Source: Sabellastarte sp. h YS-2021
Lineage: Eukaryota; Annelida; Polychaeta; Sabellida; Sabellidae
DNA length: 64,000 nucleotides
Assembly (NCBI GenBank): GCA_964017235.1
Contig: OZ024929.1
Coordinates: forward strand, 59,181,603 to 59,245,602
Direction: 5' to 3'
Numbering within the stretch: position 1 is the first letter of the stretch; every line of letters starts with the position of its first letter. The notes below the pieces were generated by a model. It saw only the letters and a list, made by a program, of their open reading frames with translations. It had not been told where the DNA came from and ran no database searches. Below are positions 49,948-59,880 of this stretch, piece by piece. A program made the translations under genes and the position numbers.

Positions 49948-50070
49948 CGTCATCATGCACCCATACAATTCTTGGATTTGCAGTGATGCTACAGAAGTGT
50001 TTCATCATGCACCCATATAATACCCGGATTTACAAGTGTGCTATCAAAGTATCATCATGCAACTGATAAT
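49948..50070. repeat. Minisatellite CATACAATTCTTGGATTTGC, second cluster
   Basis: Two to three units match the 48955-49150 array (CATCATGCACCCATACAATT). Confidence 0.75.
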
Positions 50071-50640
50071 CACATTTTATCTTCTGTCTTGTATTTTTGG
50101 GAAGTGGGGGAGAGGATGGGCTAGTTTGGCTTTTTTTAACACAGAGAGTTTTAATGGATATTTAGTGGAAAAATGAGACCAATTTTACTTGATAAAGATA
50201 AAGTAATAACCATAGATCAGTTTGAGATAGGTAAACTGAATTTACACCAAATCATATGGGCAATATACAATTGTTTATTTTTTTAAACAGAGAAATTGGA
50301 TATCAAGAAAATGGCAATCATATATCAACACTGAGAAAAAAGCATTACCATATAAGGAATGGTTGAACAAGGTGGCTTGATTTAATATAAAACAATTGGC
50401 TCTGCACCCAAAAGAAATAGTGTGGAAACAAACTTGTGTGTAAATGGACTTTATCAACACTTGGCCCAGTATTCAGTAAATAATAGTGTAGAAAGACAGC
50501 TTTTGTAATAGTGGATTTTGTTGCTGGTGAATGGCACATTGAATAAACACTTTGTAATGCTGCTGATAAATTCTGGGATAATTGAAGAAATATCTAAATG
50601 AAGCTCAGTTTTTTTTTCCTTTTTGTGCTATTCTATATAT
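50071..50640. other. AT-rich, no gene recognised
   Basis: The minus-strand frames here show no domain. This probably includes part of the 5' UTR of the LINE that follows. Confidence 0.45.
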
Positions 50641-50682
50641 TGTTTCTGGATAGCCATTTAATGCAGTGACACATCGTTGTGA

Positions 50683-51979
50683 ATGCTGGACAGTTCATTG
50701 ACCAATATGTCCCTAGATAGACTAAAAACTGGAGTCTGTGGTGGGAAGAAAGGTCTTGTACCTGACTCATCCAAAGTAATGAAGAGAGATTACAGTCTAG
50801 TCCCAACAACTTCTCCTGAATCCACAGTTACCCTAACCAATATTAAAATGTTGTTACAAGAGGAGCTTGAACCTGTAACTGAGGATCTTAATCAGTTGAA
50901 AAAATCTGTTGAATTTGCAACAGATCAACTGAAAACAGTTGCATTACTGGGCGAAAGGGTTGCAGAACTTTAAAAGAACAATTCTGAATTAACCAACCAC
51001 TTAAAAGATTCACAAGCACAGTGTCATGTCCTTCAAGAAAGGGTTATTGCACTAGAGTCTTACTCCCGAAAAAATAACTTAAAGTTTTCTCAAGTTAGAG
51101 GATCAACACTTACACTCCAGAGGCAAAATAACGAAGATTGTGAGCCAATGATGATACACCTGTTTCAAAAAGTTGGGATTAATGTTGGATCTTCTGAGAT
51201 TGAAAGTGCACATTGGATAGGACATCATAAACTGGTGAGCAGACCTATTATTATCAGATTCTTAACTCATAAGATACGACAAAAGGTGTATACTGAAAAA
51301 AACAAATTTAAAGAATTGGGAGTTCTTGTTACAGAGGATTATCCAAAAGAAGTTCTTATGCGCCATAAAATTTTTCAACCTGTACTCCAAGCCGCCTATT
51401 GCTCCAACGGAAAATTCAAAGCAAATTTGAATATGGACAAACTTATTCTTGATGGAAAATCCTTTTCAACTGGTGACTTGGACAAGCTCCCAACAGAAAT
51501 CCAACCAAGCAATGTCTGTAACATCATTAAAGATGGAAAGTTAGCTTTTTCACACAACATTCCAAACTATCCAATCATCACTAGTGCCATTTCAACCACA
51601 GTGGACATGCTTTCAACTCAGTTTAACAGTTTTATGCTTTTAAGAAGGCCAGTCATTTTAAAGAAGATGATACTGCTGATCTTATTCTCACCAAGAAGAA
51701 CCCAATAGATGCTATGCATTTGGGTAACAAGACTAAAATTTTCAATAAGCACCAATGGAAAGAAGTATCCACCAACTACATGAGACAGGTTTAAGCAAAA
51801 TGCCGGCCTCGCATCCTCTTTAAAAAGTACGGAAAACATGTTATTAATTGAAGCCAATACCTTTGATAGATTCTGGGGTGCCAGAATTGGACTAAATGAC
51901 TGACATATTGAGTGAATCAAGGTGGAAAGTTGAAAATCAGCTGGGCAAATTACTGATGGAATTGCGTGAGACCTTATGA
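50683..51979 (+). pseudogene. L1-Tx1-like LINE ORF1: L1-ORF1p-type region plus NADAR domain
   Basis: From ATG 50683 the frame is open except for one TAA at 50971. Residues about 50-125 are coiled-coil-like and end in ALESYSRKNNLKF, the L1 ORF1p signature before the RRM. 51148-51500 continues with HWIGHHKLVSRPIIIRF and VTEDYPKEVLMRHK, as in the ORF1p RRM/C-terminal regions, which bind element RNA. From about 51545 a second domain follows in pieces: STQFNSFML, frame change (about 51640), KASHFKEDDTADLILTKKNP, IFNKHQWKEV, frame change (about 51785), FKQNAGLASSL, LLIEANTFDRFWGARIGL, and after TGA 51901 in a third frame WKVENQLGKLLMELRETL, ending at 51979. This is the order of the NADAR/YbiA (DUF1768) family: K-A-x-x-F-x-D, I-L, E-A-x-x-x-D-x-x-W-G, then W-x-x-x-N-x-L-G-x-x-L-M-x-x-R. 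Known NADAR enzymes cleave N-glycosidic bonds of ADP-ribose or riboflavin intermediates. This copy is dead. Confidence 0.8.
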
Positions 51980-52507
51980 ACATATTTCAGAAGATAATAC
52001 TATTATCAATGTATATATGTTACAGTCAATCTGTGAGAAAATAAGGTCCAGTCATTACGCGTAATGGCTGAGTTGTGATAATAGCTTTAAATACTTGCTA
52101 TACTAAATAATGAAATTGTCTGGCCTCACTTAGTAATTTAAAAAAGAGGGGTAATGAAATTATAACTTCAGATTTGAATATATTCTGACATGATTACTGA
52201 TTGCTAACATGGGGAAATGATTAAATTATCAAACTCTTCCGCAGAAACTTAGCCCCACTTCTTTTAATTTATGTCATAAAATGACCTTCATATATGACTC
52301 CCTTGTAAAATATGACAGGGGACCCAATGGATAGATAGCATTTCCAACAAATGGGGACCTGATCTATAGACTCTTGCTAAAATTTAAAGTTCTGTGTAAC
52401 ATGTATGTCAAACTGAAGAACATAGAGTAAATCAAGTATCTTGAGGGTTATTTATAGTTCCAAAATGGTACTCAGGTGTGAGTTAGAGTTCAAACTTATC
52501 CTACTCA
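51980..52507. other. Spacer between ORF1 remnant and SINE
   Basis: AT-rich and non-coding. 52295-52382 is the diverged partner of 39630-39720. Confidence 0.5.
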
Positions 52508-52735
52508 GGAGGGGCCACGGTGGCAGAGTGGTAACACTCTCACCCCCCACCTCTGAGGCCGGGGTACTATTCCCGGCATGGCCTCAAGTGGGAAACCTGG
52601 TAGTTGCTTGCCATTGGTCGGCAGTTTGCAGTACAGAACCTTAACGAACTGTATGTACTGGTTTCCTCTGCCCTTCCAACTACCTGTCGTGATATGACCT
52701 GTACAGTGTTGAAAGCGTGATAATTGTTATTGTCT
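52508..52735 (+). mobile_element. tRNA-derived SINE
   Basis: The head GGCCACGGTGGCAGAGTGG contains a Pol III A box (TGGCAGAGTGGT), and GGGGTACTATTCCC about 50 bp later is a B box (GGTACTATTCC against GGTTCGANTCC). An unrelated body follows (CTTAACGAACTGTATGTACT, GGTTTCCTCTGCCCTTCCAA, CTACCTGTCGTGATATGACC, TGTACAGTGTTGAAAGCG). Fragments of the same body occur at 23787-23895 and 45248-45314, proving dispersal. The 3' tail here is short (GATAATTGTTATTG). Confidence 0.85.
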
Positions 52736-53511
52736 AACATCCAAACTTGTAACTAGTTAAACTATGGTTTTTGGTTAATTAGTCTACATTGTAAAACCTT
52801 TTTTTTGGTGTGCTTCATGCTATTATCTTGACATGTTTTTATAGAGATCAATATGTGTATGTGATTCTTTAAAACGTTGTACTTATAATTATAAAAAAAG
52901 TTTGGCACTAACATTCCTCCTCACCATTGTGAACATGAGTTCAAACCTAGATTATAACAAAATAATGTGTTCAATGAAGCATGGTCTTGATATGATCCTG
53001 GTTGTTGACAAGAAACTGAACTTTTTCGCTAACATGGTAAAAAGAAAAGATCAATAAAGTTTGAGTGGATTTTAAAAATGCAAAGATTTTGATAGTTCGC
53101 TGATAAATTATGTAGACAGACTGATATGTGTATATCTATGATAATGGACACATTACACATATGTAACCCAATTTGGTATGTTTGTCTGAGTCTTATTTAA
53201 AGTTTTATGACTTGATCTTTTTGATACAAAAATATTTGTTTTATTTGTGATGAGTTACCTTTTTACTGTTGTCTTTTCTGTATGACAGATGCAATGAAAT
53301 AATTCCAAGGCATGACATGTTAATTGAAGACTTGTGCATATCTCTCATCAACATAGTTTTGGTGGCTTCACTGGGTTACACCTACTTTGGTAACACTTTA
53401 TATGATGATTCTAAAAAAATGTTTGATAGGACAAGTCAAGATATCAACTTGAATTCCATAATAGTTAAAAAGTTTGGGGCATGTCCGGGAGAGCTACTGT
53501 GATTCTGAACC
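52736..53511. other. Region between SINE and LINE ORF2, no recognised gene
   Basis: A frame at 53269-53502 (alternative-start, 77 residues) has a hydrophobic stretch but no domain I recognise. It may be LINE inter-ORF sequence. Confidence 0.4.
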
Positions 53512-54056
53512 AATATGATATCGGGCAATCGAATCAAAATAATGTCGGGAAACTGTCAGGGTTTGAGAGACAAATGCAAAAGGATAGATGTTTTAAATTA
53601 TTTCAATGATTTTAATCCCAGCATACTCTGTTTACAGGATACTCATTTGATTGAAAGTGATGAAAATGACTAAAGTGTACTCTCTGGTGCAGACTGTTTC
53701 ATTTCCGGTTCCAAAACTAATTCCACAGGTGTTGCCATTCTTATAAAAATAACTTTGAATATAAAATAGATGATATCCAATGTGACTTGGATGGCAACCT
53801 CCTCATACTTGATCTTAACATAGCTTCTATATCAGTTAGATTAATTAATATATGATAATATATGTCCCAAATTTGGATACTCCAGATTTTTTTCAGAATC
53901 TGACAAACAAGACTATTTAGTAATTTGTGGGGATTTTAATCTAGTTATGAATCCAAATTTAGATAGCTATAATTATGTCGGCATCAAAAACCCAAAATCA
54001 AGAAATTTAGCTTTGAAAATCTTGGAAACACACAATTTAACTGATGTATTTCGATA
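53512..54056 (+). pseudogene. L1-Tx1-like LINE ORF2, endonuclease part
   Basis: NCQGLRDKCKRIDVL and ILCLQDTHL correspond to the first two motifs (N-x-x-G, Q-E/D-T-H) of APE-type LINE endonucleases. STGVAILI, DYLVICGDFNLVMNP (GDFN motif) and SRNLALKILETHNLTDVFR follow. Stops and at least two frameshifts break it (for instance near 53670 and 53760-53890). The endonuclease nicks target DNA to prime reverse transcription. The frame is interrupted at 54056 by a MITE. Confidence 0.78.
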
Positions 54057-55157
54057 CAGTCGAACCTGCGAAGAGCAACCACCTAAGGGAAAATGCAAAA
54101 GTGGTTGCTCTTTGCAGGTGGTTGCTCTTTGCAGGTGGTTGCTCTAAAATCTATGATTTTAGAGGGTTTTTTTCACATTTACTAGCAACAGTTTTATGTA
54201 TGAGAAAAATATGAAACATTAAGCATGTTGTTAACAAATTTAAATATAAATGAGGTAACTAAGGTACATTGAAAGTGTTTAAGCGTTATAACTTTCAGAA
54301 CCTGACTGAAGACTACATTTCAAAAGATCATTTATTTGATTACTTTTTATTTGTATGATGATAAAAAAAACTTTTAAAACTGAATTTAAGAATATCATTT
54401 AAACTAGTGTTGTTGATGCCCTTTGATAGTTTAAAAATAACTGTTGATAGTACAAGTATATGTGACGAGGTGTATAAACTATAAAGTGAACATATATAAG
54501 CTATGAAGTGAACTCAGGAGTGAGCTTTACACAATAACATACAATCTAGAGTCACTTCTATGGGATCTAATTGTCATTGAGGTGAGGCACAATGGTGGGG
54601 TGTTAATCCACTGTCCTGATACTACTGAAACAACCTATTCATGAGTAATCCTATAGACAAACAAAAACAAACACCCCACTTAATTGAAACCTATTAGCAA
54701 GGAGATAACCTGAAAATACATGATCTGATGTTGACTCTCAAACATGTTTATAATACACAGATCATTTAAAACACCCTGTTTAGAAAAAGCTAAGTTTTCC
54801 ACTGTTTATGTACCTTTTTATTTTGCATACAAATTGTATTAAGATACTGGCATAGCAAACTGCACTAAAAACTTCAGTGTATAAAATAAAAAAAAATGTA
54901 TGTACATAGATTATATGTAAACACTATTAAAGTTAAGTATTTTTAAAGAATAGTTATATTCATTATAATGATTAGTGAAGGTAGGATGAATATTGTATCT
55001 AGATGTAATGAGCTGCTATTAGCAAAATATATCATGAATTGGGATTTTTTGAAAGGAAAGGGTGGTTGCTTTTCACAGGTTCAGGGCTCTCTTGGGACAT
55101 AAAGAGGGTGGTTGCTGGTTGCAGGTAGCAGGTGGTTGCTCGAGCAGGTTGGACCTG
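54057..55157. mobile_element. 1.1-kb TA-target MITE (CAGTCGAACCTGC ends) inside LINE ORF2
   Basis: The left end CAGTCGAACCTGCGAAGAGC and right end (read inward) CAGGTCCAACCTGCTCGAGC are both followed by AACCACCT. TA precedes the left end; the right flank reads TTA, one base off a TA duplication. Subterminal GTGGTTGCTCTTTGCAG repeats occur at both ends. There is no transposase. The ends resemble Tc1/mariner/pogo-type elements. Confidence 0.7.
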
Positions 55158-57420
55158 TTAATAATATTAAACATTAATATCAACATTATTGAAAATTCAA
55201 ACTCAACATATGTTTTACTAGATACTCTGGAGGCAAGAATCAGAAGAATCATTAAATTTATGGAAAAAAATTGATGGGAAATGTGATAAGATCAAGAGTA
55301 AATTGGCTGCAAAATGGAGAGAAACCGTCAAAATACTTCTGTAGTCTCGAACACCAAACATTTATTGATAAACTATTAAAAGGGTTTGTCTCCAGATTGG
55401 TGAAACAATTACAGAACAAGTTGGTATTTTACACTATGTAAAAGAGTTCTATGCTAACTTATTTCAAAGTAAAAACAAAGAAATACCATATATAAACTTT
55501 ACAGAATCTTTTTAAAATCATCCCATCAATAAACTGTCTGAATCAGAAGCATCATCATTGGAAGGACCTTTAAAAACATCCGAACTCAGTGCCGCATTAA
55601 CGTGTAAATTTTTTTAAGTTTTCTGGTTAAAGCTAAAATCAAAAGGAAAATTATCTGTATCATTATGTCAGTCAATAATTAATTGCATTCCAAAAGGTGA
55701 CAAAAATAGAGAATTTTTGCAAAATTGGTGCCCTATCTCCCTCTTGAGTGTTTTGTATAAATTGCTTTTTTCTGTAATTGCATAAAGGCTCAAGACAGTA
55801 TTAGATAAGTTAGTTTCAAAATGTCAAACAGGATTTATTAAGGGGCGGTATATTGGTGAGTCAACTAGATTGATTTACGACATCATGAATTATAAGTTAA
55901 AAATAAAAATGGGTTACTGATGCGGATAGATTTTGAAAAAGCCTACAACTCAATATCTTGGAAATTTATGTACAATACTTTAGAATTATTAGGTTTTAGT
56001 GAAAGGTTTATATGTTGGATTAAATTAATGAATACAGACCTTATTGCCTATATTTTGCAAGCCAGAGTTAAATCAGAATTTTTTTTCCATTGAGAGATGA
56101 TGTAAACAAGGGGATCCAATAGCCCCATATTTGTTCCTTTTGTGCGGGTAAATACTGCATTATATGATAGAGGTTAATGTTGCAATTAAAGGCATAATTA
56201 TTGATTCAATTGAGATTAAGATAACACAGTTTGCCAATGACACAACCCTTGTTCTTGATGGTTCACAGAGCTCCTTAAAGGCTGCCCTGAGTACGCTTGA
56301 AATTTTTGGATCTTATTCTGGTTTAAAAATGAACACAAACAAGACAAAGATTATTTGGATTGTAAGAAAGAAGTATTCCAAGGGTACATTACAAGTTTCA
56401 GTCAATTTAGATTGGGGAACTCCACATTTTAATTTATTGGATTTATCTTTTCAGTTGACCTGAATGACTTGATTGCTTTGAATTATTCAAAGGCATTAGA
56501 AAATTCAAAGAAATCCTTAATATTTTGGAAAAAAACAAAACCTAACTCCTTTTGGAAAAATAATGGTGATAAAAACATTTATTCTCTCAAAATTTAATCA
56601 TTTATTTATTTATCACCAGATAACAATTTCATTAAACAACTGAATTTAAGTCTCTTTGCATTTCTATGGGACATTAAACCTGACAAAATCAAATGAGATT
56701 ATGTCACACAGGACTACACAAATGGTGGCTTAAGAATGGTAAATATTGAGTGCTTTATTCAATCATCGAAATTAACCTGGATGAATAGAATTTTTAAAAA
56801 TGACTCCCAACCCTGGTTACAACTTTTTGATAAAACAATTTCACCAATTTCAAAATTAGCACTCTTTGGTTCTACTTGGTGTGGCATATTAACAAACAAA
56901 ACACAAAATGAATTATGGAAGGAAACTTTGACATCATGGAAAAAACTTTCTGATAATACTCCCATAAATAACTCCAATGACATTTTGGCTTCCCCACAAT
57001 GGTATAACCCCAAAATCTATCTCCAAAATGGAACTTAACCTACCCAATTGGAGTAAACATGGGATAACCTATGCTGGTGACCTACTTGACAGTAATGATA
57101 TTTTCATTAGTGAAAAAGATTTTGAGCAAAAATATACCCTTTTGAAAACTAATTTCCCAGAATACTTGCGAGTTAAAATGTGTGTTGAACTTTATCTTAA
57201 AAAATATCTTAAAGATACTCCCTTATTTTTTATCAGCCCTGTTTACCAAAACAAATAGCATCTCTATTTGGCTATAATCAAGGTTCCAAACGTTTTTACA
57301 AACTTTTGAATAAGACTTATCCAGATATGAGTTTCAAAAATGCATGGAACAATGAACTAAATATCAATATTGATGAAGATACATGGCAAGAGGCTTTTAA
57401 AATACATAAATGTTCATCTG
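55158..57420 (+). pseudogene. L1-Tx1-like LINE ORF2, reverse transcriptase part
   Basis: After the MITE the similarity continues: RIDFEKAYNSISWKF (RT motif with catalytic Asp, about 55927), LLGFSERFICWIKLM, a damaged G-x-x-Q-G-D-P-I-x-P segment (about 56108-56125), TQFANDTTLVLDGS (normally F-A-D-D; here Asn replaces the first Asp, about 56228), SGLKMNTNKTK, then GGLRMVNIECFIQSSKLTWM and KIYLQNG downstream. Numerous frameshifts and stops show an old copy. The sequence is cut at about 57420 by the next LINE. A short piece resembling an ORF2 C-terminus (KMDLKEEVFSKKWQYIEFL) occurs at about 59940-60003. Confidence 0.8.
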
Positions 57421-59880
57421 GATGTTGAGTGTGGTGACAGGTCAAGGTTCTATGACATCCTTCAGTGCTGCAGTTTGATTTAATGTGTCAATAGTACGAC
57501 TCACATACTGGGTCACACTTTGGACGTGTTGATATCTCCTGGTGACTCAGATTTTGTCCGTAATGTCAATGTTGGGGACTTTATCTCTGACCATGCTGCA
57601 ATACGATGCCAACTTGATTTCTCCCACCCAGCAATCTGCATTGGAAACATGGTCTCTTATCGAAGGTATCATAGGATTGATATCAACCAGTTCTGCAAAG
57701 ACCTTAGAAATATTCCATTTGTACTCTTTCCTGCAGGAACCACGACAGAATTGTATGATCAGTACCGGGCTGACGTTACCCAGGTACTTGATAAGCACGC
57801 TCCTATCATCTCACGCATGGCAAAACGGCAGTCAGATGAGTGGTTGTCTGAGTCATATCGTATGGCTTGCTCCCTAAGGCGGCAATTTGAGCGGATGTGG
57901 AGAAAACATAAGACATTGTCGAACAGGTCGAGGCTCCGCAAGCAAATTGCATGGTGCAATCGACTGGCCAACAATGACAAGGGTTCCTATTATGCCAATC
58001 TTATAACTGCAAATAGTGAAGACCCTAAGAAGCTATGGCAGTCATTAAGGAAGGTATTGCATCGCACCTCTGAGACGGTTCTGCCAGCTCATAGCTCGGA
58101 AAAAAACCTTGCAGACACATTTGCTTCTTTCTTTACAAATAAAATAAGTAAAATCAGGGACACATTCTCCGCTTCTGGTTCATTCAATGATTATGTGCCC
58201 CCCGCCTTCAATACCTTTAAGCCTGTGACTGAAGACGAGGTCAGAAAGTGCATCAATGAGTCTCCTACTAAATCTTGCCTACTGGATCCCATACCAACAT
58301 TCCTCCTCAGGGACTGTCTTGATATACTCCTTCCATCTATCACCAAGTTGGTTAATTACTCTCTTAGTGATGGCTCTTTTCCAAGTGCTTTCAAAAGGGC
58401 TGTTGTCACCCCCCTCATTAAAAAGGCATCTCTGCCCAAAAATGACCTTAAGAATTACCGCCCAGTGTCTGGTCTTTGTTTCCTCTCAAAGTTGGTTGAG
58501 CGAGTTGTTGCTAAGCAACTTATGTCACACATCAATATCAACAAACTGGATAATCCACATCAGTCAGCCTATAAGCCAGGACATTCTACTGAAACAGCTC
58601 TATTGTCTATAAAGAACGAGGTACATCTCTCTCTGGCAGGTGGCGAACCTACAGCTCTAGTCCTTCTGGATTTATCAGCCGCGTTCGATACCATAGATCA
58701 CAGCATTCTTCTCAGTTACCTTAAATCCTGGTTCGGTCTTGGTGGAAATGTACTTAAGTGGTTTGCTTCCTACTTGGGTGATCGTTGCCAGTTCGTTAAG
58801 ATAGGCTCTACTCTATCTGAATTAAGCAAGCTCATCTACGGCGTTCCCCAAGGTTCAGTTCTCGGTCCATTGCTGTTTTCACTTTATACTACACCACTTA
58901 GTAAAATCATCCACCTTCATCCACATATCAAATTTCACTTCTACACGGATGACACACAGCTTTACATCCATCTCTCTCATAAAAATGCCTCGGCAGCTCT
59001 CGCCAGGCTTAATGCCTGCCTTCTTGATGTGCAACGATGGATGTCTCTCAGTAAACTGAAGCTTAACCCAGAGAAAACGGAGTTCATTGTCTTTGGCTCT
59101 AAGTCTCCTACTTTCCTGTTAGTATCTTTGGCAGCCTTATTCATCCGGTTGATTCTGTTAGAAATCTAGGTGTGTGGTTCGATGCAGAATTTTCATTCTC
59201 TGAACATGTCAAGAGGACTTGCAAAGCGTGTTTTCTCCAGATGCGTGACCTTCGTAGAATAAGACAGTATCTCACTACAGAAGTGGCAGTCCTAGCTGCA
59301 AATGCCTTGGTTAGTAGCCGCCTGGACTACTGTAACTCTCTTTTTAGGAGTTTGTCATGTTTCAATCTTCACAAATTGCAAAGTATTCAGAATACCCTTG
59401 CTCGTATTGTTACATACCATAGAAGGTATGCTCATGTTACGCCCATTCTGAAACAACTCCACTGGCTGCCCGTGAAGTATAGATGTATGTTCAAAACTGC
59501 AACTCTAGTATATAAATTTCTACATAGTGGCTCCCCTTCCTACTTTCAACCTTACTTGTCTCCCAGTAGTAGTTCCTATAGTACCAGGCGTAGTCACCCA
59601 GATTGTCAATATCTTACTGTTCCTCCTTTCCGCCCATCAGTCTTTAAGTCTGTCAAACATTTTGATCACAGCTTTGCCTTTGATGCTCCTAGAATCTGGA
59701 ATGAACTCCCTCATGATGTGTGCAGTGCAACATCAGTTGCCTCCTTCAGAAAGAAGCTTAAGACTTATCTGTATGCAAAAGCCTATCCGCCATAGCCTCC
59801 CTTGTCACCCTGTGTCTCCTTGGTACGACCTTGCTATATCCCCGGATTAATGTTAATCAAGAATGTCCAGTAATTTAAAT
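57421..59880 (+). mobile_element. 5'-truncated CR1/L2-type LINE
   Basis: It starts in the C-terminal part of the endonuclease (about 57421) within the L1-Tx1-like ORF2 and ends just after its RT C-terminus. Neighbouring LINE sequence is older and more damaged, so this is a later insertion. No poly-A tail is seen; the 3' end is approximate. Confidence 0.75.
57502..59795 (+). pseudogene. CR1/L2/jockey-type reverse transcriptase, one frameshift
   Basis: The frame is open from GHTLDVLIS (endonuclease end, with SDHAAI as its catalytic SDH motif) to 59169. The first ATG-like position at 57520 is a TTG, and an in-frame TAA at about 57478 breaks the upstream part, so there is no true start. RT motifs are VVTPLIKK, LKNYRPVSGL, QSAYKPGHSTETALL, LLDLSAAFDTIDHSIL, YGVPQGSVLGPLLFSLY, FYTDDTQLYI (Y-T-D-D active site) and LKLNPEKTEF. 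A frameshift near 59120-59170 moves to the next frame, which carries the typical C-terminus: LVSSRLDYCNSLF, LHKLQSIQNTLARIV, LHWLPVKYR, WNELPHDV and SFRKKLKTYLYAKAY. It would prime and copy its RNA at a chromosomal nick. Confidence 0.92.

Follow-up and report, generated by a model that had tools for sequence, protein, structure and literature searches.

The window, the whole stretch of 64,000 nucleotides analysed here, raises the question of whether a NADAR domain whose motifs are scattered over three reading frames belongs to the LINE beside it, and what such an element might do with it. The first-pass annotation had proposed that the domain is attached to ORF1 of an L1-Tx1-like LINE, downstream of a coiled coil and an RRM of the L1-ORF1p kind, and that this fusion might be undescribed.

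NADAR pieces of the window and the LINE copy around them

The NADAR of L029, the closest intact relative, was compared with the window by tblastn. Positions 51537-51788 matched with 66 of 84 residues identical (E 3e-42), a second piece (RFKQNAGLASS...LLIEANTFDRFWGARIGLND) ended at 51900, and a third, at 51899-51976, had 20 of 26 residues identical to L029. These pieces are collinear with the L029 NADAR and spread over three frames, which confirms the motif order read in the first-pass annotation. Its placement of the domain at 51545..51979 was right as to location and slightly off at the start, the domain beginning a few bases earlier, at 51537. None of 20 base-shuffled copies of 50001-54000 (plain, not dinucleotide-preserving shuffles) matched at E<1e-3. 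The Pfam check proposed for the domain succeeded in part: the open piece 51627-51791 matched NADAR with E 5.9e-8 and 33.6 bits, slightly below the cut-off of 35.1, and the two other pieces gave no NADAR match.

The whole ORF1 of L029 matches the window from 50704 to 51976 in tblastn, its residues 2-405 having 69% identity to 50704-51900 (E 4e-179). L029 ORF2 matches 53512-54057 and then 55191-56897, and at the DNA level the blocks 50113-52018, 53232-54054 and 55177-56899 are 81-85% identical to L029. Judged by these ORF1, ORF2 and DNA matches, the window NADAR is the tail of ORF1 in a long, decayed L1/Tx1-type LINE copy, which is laid out as follows.

50113..57207, + strand: decayed L1/Tx1-type LINE copy, extent by traced homology (DNA match to L029 over 50113-56899; protein match to L027 ORF2 as far as 57207)
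50704..51536, + strand: ORF1 before NADAR, with N-terminus, coiled coil, RRM and CTD; stop at 50971-50973 (tblastn; profile of relatives against L1 ORF1p structures)
51537..51788, + strand: first NADAR piece, broken by a stop at 51582-51584 and, where E43 would stand, by another at 51624-51626 (tblastn; Pfam NADAR below cut-off on 51627-51791)
51789..51900, + strand: second NADAR piece, in another frame; equivalents of E125, D130 and W133 kept (EANTFDRFWG) (tblastn)
51899..51976, + strand: third NADAR piece, in a third frame (ESRWKVENQLGKLLMELRETL) (tblastn)
51977-51979, + strand: ORF1 stop codon (sequence)
51980..53511, + strand: region between ORF1 and ORF2, lying between their matches
53512..54057, + strand: ORF2 remnant, endonuclease part (L029 ORF2 residues 4-189, 63% identity, E 1e-60)
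54058..55190, no strand assigned: stretch without ORF2 match that splits ORF2, a gap between matches and probably inserted sequence
55191..57207, + strand: ORF2 remnant spread over several frames, covering reverse transcriptase and C-terminal parts (L029 ORF2 pieces at 55191-56897, E down to 5e-158; L027 ORF2 pieces to 57207)

The copy in the window is dead and cannot be active, because stops break both its coiled coil (50971-50973) and its NADAR (51582-51584 and 51624-51626) and because its frame changes near 51537, 51790 and 51900. The second NADAR stop occupies the position of the catalytic glutamate E43 of the relatives; the E125 equivalent is kept.

Some neighbouring features were recorded alongside. 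Window positions 52718-53138 recur several times between the ORFs of L029 (L029:2014-3483), as diverged repeats of 67-76% identity. A tRNA-like SINE considered at about 52510-52700 was dropped, ARAGORN finding no tRNA there. Directly 3' of the decayed copy lies a second LINE (57484-59795; Pfam RVT_1, E 5.6e-33), which over 58111-59103 has 38% identity to the elements called type B below.

ORF1 and NADAR in intact relatives

The genome searched comprises 1.79 Gb in 647 contigs. With a NADAR family profile, at least 150 sequences pass the curated cut-off (150 of 2705 candidates were scored and all pass). In order that loci should not be picked by their NADAR, a separate search used as query the ORF1 segment 50974-51705 of the window, which lies mostly before NADAR; its matches end at about residue 193, ahead of that domain. 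From 150 scored among 1206 candidates, we fetched 20 loci, ranking from second to near the end of the list and picked among rows with open frames of 353-459 residues. NADAR follows the RRM part in the same frame in all 20, being cut short in L035, L036 and L046. A single check row with a short frame (274 residues) also has NADAR, though with a 13-residue gap and lacking the end of the domain. The attachment of NADAR to ORF1 and its position after the RRM in one frame were therefore found in 21/21 fetched loci (17 whole, 4 cut short), and the outcome named in advance as telling against a fusion, relatives that end ORF1 before NADAR, was seen in 0/21. Of the 36 ORF1 frames with 395 residues or more, 34 stop within a few residues past NADAR, and L023 and L046 are cut inside it. 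Near-identical copies of ORF1-NADAR elements lie on several chromosomes.

When 28 single ORF1 sequences were compared with Pfam Transposase_22, the model of the L1 RRM, no match was observed. A profile built from the part before NADAR of 28 relatives (A3) matched human L1 ORF1p (2YKP, E 1.2e-7; 2YKO, E 1.3e-7) and mouse ORF1p (2LDY, E 8.4e-6), the matches running in order from the last part of the coiled coil through the RRM into the beginning of the CTD. Intact relatives matched Pfam NADAR (PF08719) with E 1e-44 to 8e-42, from positions 2-9 to 162-163 of its 163, and a NADAR profile of 15 LINE sequences and a Polinton-like one matched PDB 8BAU (E 1.9e-33) and E. coli YbiA (2B3W, E 1.2e-23). 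These profile comparisons show an ORF1 in which coiled coil, RRM and CTD are followed by a complete YbiA-type NADAR, and agree with the L1-ORF1p-like region claimed at first reading. ORF2 was confirmed too: in the relatives that we call type A it has an AP-type endonuclease and an L1-like reverse transcriptase, L027 matching Exo_endo_phos and RVT_1 in Pfam. By these features the window copy and the type A relatives belong to the L1/Tx1 type, a label under which Tx1 is not told apart from other L1-like clades. That the fusion consists of an L1/Tx1-type LINE ORF1 with NADAR is, in our view, practically certain. A search of the genome by PF02994 for L1-type ORF1s that have no NADAR gave no match, and its control was silent too.

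Looked at in the window alone, the pieces in different frames could suggest that NADAR is a host gene or another element that adjoins the LINE by chance. We reject this for the present genome and give it a vanishingly small probability: NADAR is in frame in 21/21 relatives, the ORF1 and NADAR trees have their main groups in common, and whole units including NADAR moved between chromosomes, so that a host gene copied beside the LINE, as the first-pass annotation had considered, does not describe what is seen.

Locus L025 was handled separately. There, at L025:2382-3764, a LINE copy cut at the end of the RRM/CTD is in frame with upstream sequence unlike ORF1, to which NADAR is thus fused; by eye the upstream part resembles a DIRS-type recombinase, and Pfam found only NADAR there. 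A fusion of NADAR to another protein was rejected in favour of a shortened LINE, probably inserted in frame by chance. L025 is excluded from the median identities below and included in the residue counts, pN/pS and the ORF1 and NADAR trees.

Residues were numbered after the Phytophthora NADAR enzyme (PMC11543638). Over the 36 long ORF1 frames, E43, W89, E125 and D130 are present in 36 and K50 and W133 in 35 each, the lone missing W133 belonging to a truncated frame; removal of seven near-copies (n=29) leaves E43, W89, E125 and D130 at 29 and K50 and W133 at 28. Position 125 is the YbiA-type Glu, not Asp or His, in 36/36. The retention of catalytic Glu and Trp in intact relatives, about which the first-pass annotation had asked, is hence borne out. 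Other contacts vary: K75 is kept in 28 frames and R93 in 13, R79 in 8 with K in its place in 20, Y84 is replaced by F in 32, and D86 occurs in none. In the Phytophthora enzyme K75, R79, R93 and D86 hold the adenine and the pyrophosphate. With the catalytic site held and the adenine-side and pyrophosphate contacts variable, the natural substrate of the LINE NADAR may differ from plain guanine-ADP-ribose.

NADAR is also the best conserved part of ORF1 by median pairwise identity (0.47, against 0.39 for RRM plus CTD and 0.28 for the N-terminus plus coiled coil; 378 pairs of 28 non-redundant ORF1s). Purifying selection, the other point raised in the first-pass annotation, is indicated: pN was below pS in 621/621 pairs, in NADAR (median ratio 0.45) as well as in the rest of ORF1 (0.57), ratios that only bound the constraint because synonymous sites are saturated in nearly all pairs. 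These are pairs with pS >0.1, 9 near-identical ones of 630 being left out, and pN and pS are given instead of dN/dS because nearly all pairs are near-identical or saturated. In the less diverged pairs L016/L021 and L012/L017, dN was 0.14 and 0.19 with dS 1.19 and 1.25 in the N-part, and dN was 0.17 and 0.19 in NADAR, with dS near saturation.

Two LINE types and the descent of NADAR

We typed 21 long loci (L009-L029, the first 20 picked from NADAR matches) by their ORF2. Thirteen have the L1-like ORF2 of type A, as in the window, and seven a different one, type B (L009-L011, L019-L021 and L024, in four families); L016 has neither within its stretch. Type A ORF2 from L013 matched human L1 ORF2p with E 8e-78, whereas type B ORF2 from L010 gave an L1 match of about 3e-25 to 6e-25 and an R2 match of 5e-18. 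The two types have 24% identity over the reverse transcriptase (RT) and form separate clades across a long branch, and by these comparisons the reverse transcriptase of type B is not L1-like.

Type B as one element nested in another was ruled out by moved units that contain both ORFs and by target-site duplications. On three chromosomes L009, L010 and L011 have in common a unit of ~6.3 kb with both ORFs and ~99% identity, L011 having an additional stretch in ORF2. Three of the five type B copies examined are flanked by target-site duplications (L010, 12 bases; L011, 12; L019, 10), and L009 and L020 have no clear one.

By ORF1, all four type B families fall into one group with L028, a type A locus (N-part 100/99, NADAR 93/87), whereas a quick tree of the RTs puts L028 in a group with L029. 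By this conflict between the trees, ORF1-NADAR was exchanged between LINE lineages, in one direction or the other. For the Jockey superfamily, PMC4120745 argues that LINE lineages have swapped their ORF1s.

The N-part and NADAR trees have their main groups in common, several inner branches being weak and L025 and L014 long. In a comparison with 27 rows from viral contigs, 3 from bacteria, 2 Polinton-like ones and 8BAU, without animal host NADAR genes, a branch with support 99/91 has all 29 LINE NADARs on one side; when the very long E. coli YbiA row is included, a quick tree needs two changes. Separate captures of NADAR by different LINE families are unsupported, as the main groups of ORF1 and NADAR are common and the LINE NADARs lie on one side of a branch. 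Taken with the pN/pS comparison, the trees point to a single fusion event followed by purifying selection on NADAR. In a phage collection, tblastn with the L029 NADAR matched 896 phage records at E 1e-3 or better, the best being a Vibrio phage with 45% identity.

A second mobile element of the genome, outside the window, carries NADAR alone, as an ORF of 167-179 residues (L001-L008, L049-L052). Such open frames make up the top 38 rows of the NADAR search (150 scored), and 8/8 of those read carry NADAR alone. The element is repeated and has 166-base tandem repeats, and one copy has a dUTPase (E 1.1e-19) and a 757-residue frame nearby, the latter resembling by eye a protein-primed DNA polymerase with all Pfam matches below cut-off. 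These features give it the look of a Polinton-like, virus-like element. E43, K50, W89, E125, D130 and W133 are present in 8/8 of its NADARs (L001-L008); this NADAR falls outside the LINE group, and its grouping with two Burkholderiaceae sequences is weak (SH-aLRT 86, 81).

Candidate roles of NADAR and comparison with known systems

The L1 ORF1 protein of mammals coats the element RNA and works without an enzyme domain, and reversible ADP-ribosylation of nucleic acids is well shown in bacteria. NADARs, eukaryotic ones included, hydrolyse guanine-linked ADP-ribose (PMC11543638), and clams and butterflies make enzymes that write ADP-ribose on guanine in DNA (PMC11209040); for a writer in the present host, CARP-1 of clams is no more than a suggestion. 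Since the catalytic residues are kept in the intact relatives, their NADAR is most likely an active hydrolase, and the retention of these key residues suggests that the LINE probably uses it, perhaps against host defence. If ORF1p coats the element RNA as it does in mammalian L1, the ribonucleoprotein (RNP) would bear NADAR in many copies. From there they could strip ADP-ribose, or a related ribosyl adduct, from guanines or other groups of the element RNA, the nascent cDNA or the target DNA, and adduct removal would let retrotransposition continue in a host that ADP-ribosylates nucleic acid. This role of an eraser on the RNP that keeps retrotransposition going, the simplest of the readings, is drawn by analogy, and we put it forward tentatively, with confidence somewhat below even.

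Other readings have to be weighed against it. NADAR could be a non-catalytic binding or packing module of ORF1p, making contact with RNA, ADP-ribose or the trimer; mammalian L1 ORF1 needs no enzyme, and the C-terminal place beside the CTD suits an added RNA-contact domain. We consider this unlikely, since E43, E125, W89 and D130 are invariant (36/36) while the ligand contacts vary, the opposite of what is expected of a pure binder. A similarly low probability goes to a small-molecule enzyme, whose substrate would be a soluble signal derived from NAD or a reactive ribosyl-amine metabolite and whose action would dampen signalling in the host. Riboflavin intermediates are substrates of YbiA-type NADARs, and an action on soluble ADP-ribose derivatives has been proposed (PMC9503650, PMC11125620). 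The LINE NADARs do not retain all ADP-ribose contacts of the Phytophthora enzyme, but NADAR is fused to an RNA-binding protein in every relative read, so that an RNP-bound substrate is the more natural one.

A further suggestion, made for the C. gigas and Ectocarpus elements in PMC12477816, is that NADAR works on the RNA of the element itself, processing its ends or by-products of its repair, which would be RNA processing and not counter-defence. In nematodes, trans-splicing requires SNA-3, a protein with three NADARs (PMC9303266). The idea is a fair rival to the eraser role, but no partner enzyme is indicated in the loci, and the chance that we allow it is small, below that of a binder or a small-molecule enzyme. 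The explanation that we prefer as a whole, a dead L1/Tx1 copy in the window whose ORF1 NADAR is in its intact relatives an active eraser tethered to the RNP, stands in our estimate a little short of an even chance.

The supposed novelty of the fusion did not survive comparison with the literature. One sentence of PMC12477816 (2025) notes that divergent ORF1 matches of several Crassostrea gigas Tx1 LINE families appear to be NADAR domains; the basic fusion is therefore known, and the Tx1 ORF1-NADAR fusion as such is already in print. Those elements and the window copy are alike in being Tx1 LINE ORF1s with a YbiA-family NADAR-like domain, as far as a single Repbase-query sentence, compared by description only, allows. 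The window copy alone is a further member of the kind noted in Crassostrea. Beyond the wording of that sentence, the present data add the CTD-then-NADAR order in frame, the kept catalytic residues, the common descent of ORF1 and NADAR and a non-L1 RT lineage. Our literature search on NADAR, YbiA or DUF1768 with retrotransposons brought up PMC12477816 as the one paper on NADAR in such elements, and nothing on a second LINE type, common ORF1/NADAR descent or catalytic residues.

Among other systems, an Ectocarpus Gypsy lineage likewise carries NADAR in a retrotransposon protein, but it is an LTR element with the domain in the N-terminal part of Pol, and almost only bacterial matches are reported for it (PMC12477816). 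Human L1 ORF1p and ORF2p (PDB 2YKO, 2YKP, 9K6G) have the same coiled coil-RRM-CTD ORF1 and EN-RT ORF2, without NADAR. CR1 LINEs with an esterase-type ORF1 also added an enzyme domain to ORF1, and ORF1 exchange has been argued for them; there, by the descriptions in PMC3905857 and PMC4120745, the enzyme is a lipid-type esterase and the superfamily another. The DarT1-NADAR toxin-antitoxin pair has the same NADAR catalytic frame but, as described in PMC11543638, Asp for the YbiA-type Glu and a DarT partner. Here Glu stands in 36/36, and a six-frame search of the genome, which can miss split genes, gave no match to the writer DarT (PF14487; control matched 1/14); a Scabin-like writer (PF22596) likewise gave no match in the genome, its control being silent too. 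NADARs of RNA viruses, large DNA viruses and phages, too, belong to parasitic elements and are thought to counter host ADP-ribosylation (PMC9503650); these are not LINEs, and the NADARs that we sampled from viral contigs lie outside the LINE group.

What is new here, relative to the Crassostrea note in that one sentence of PMC12477816, is a second, non-L1 LINE type with the same ORF1-NADAR. Some invertebrate 'NADAR genes' may be LINE ORF1s. A wider reading, which we regard as rather unlikely at present, sees in ORF1-NADAR a portable counter-defence module of animal retrotransposons, an old fusion to an L1-type ORF1 that was handed on to a second LINE lineage, with the separate NADAR of the Polinton-like element as a parallel case. 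An ADP-ribose eraser kept in an RNA-coating protein through deep divergence would be a natural test of ADP-ribosylation in animals, since an element that cannot jump without the eraser implies a host that writes the mark. Were the module reading true, nucleic-acid ADP-ribosylation would be a real animal defence against mobile elements, and the LINE would carry the eraser on its RNP.
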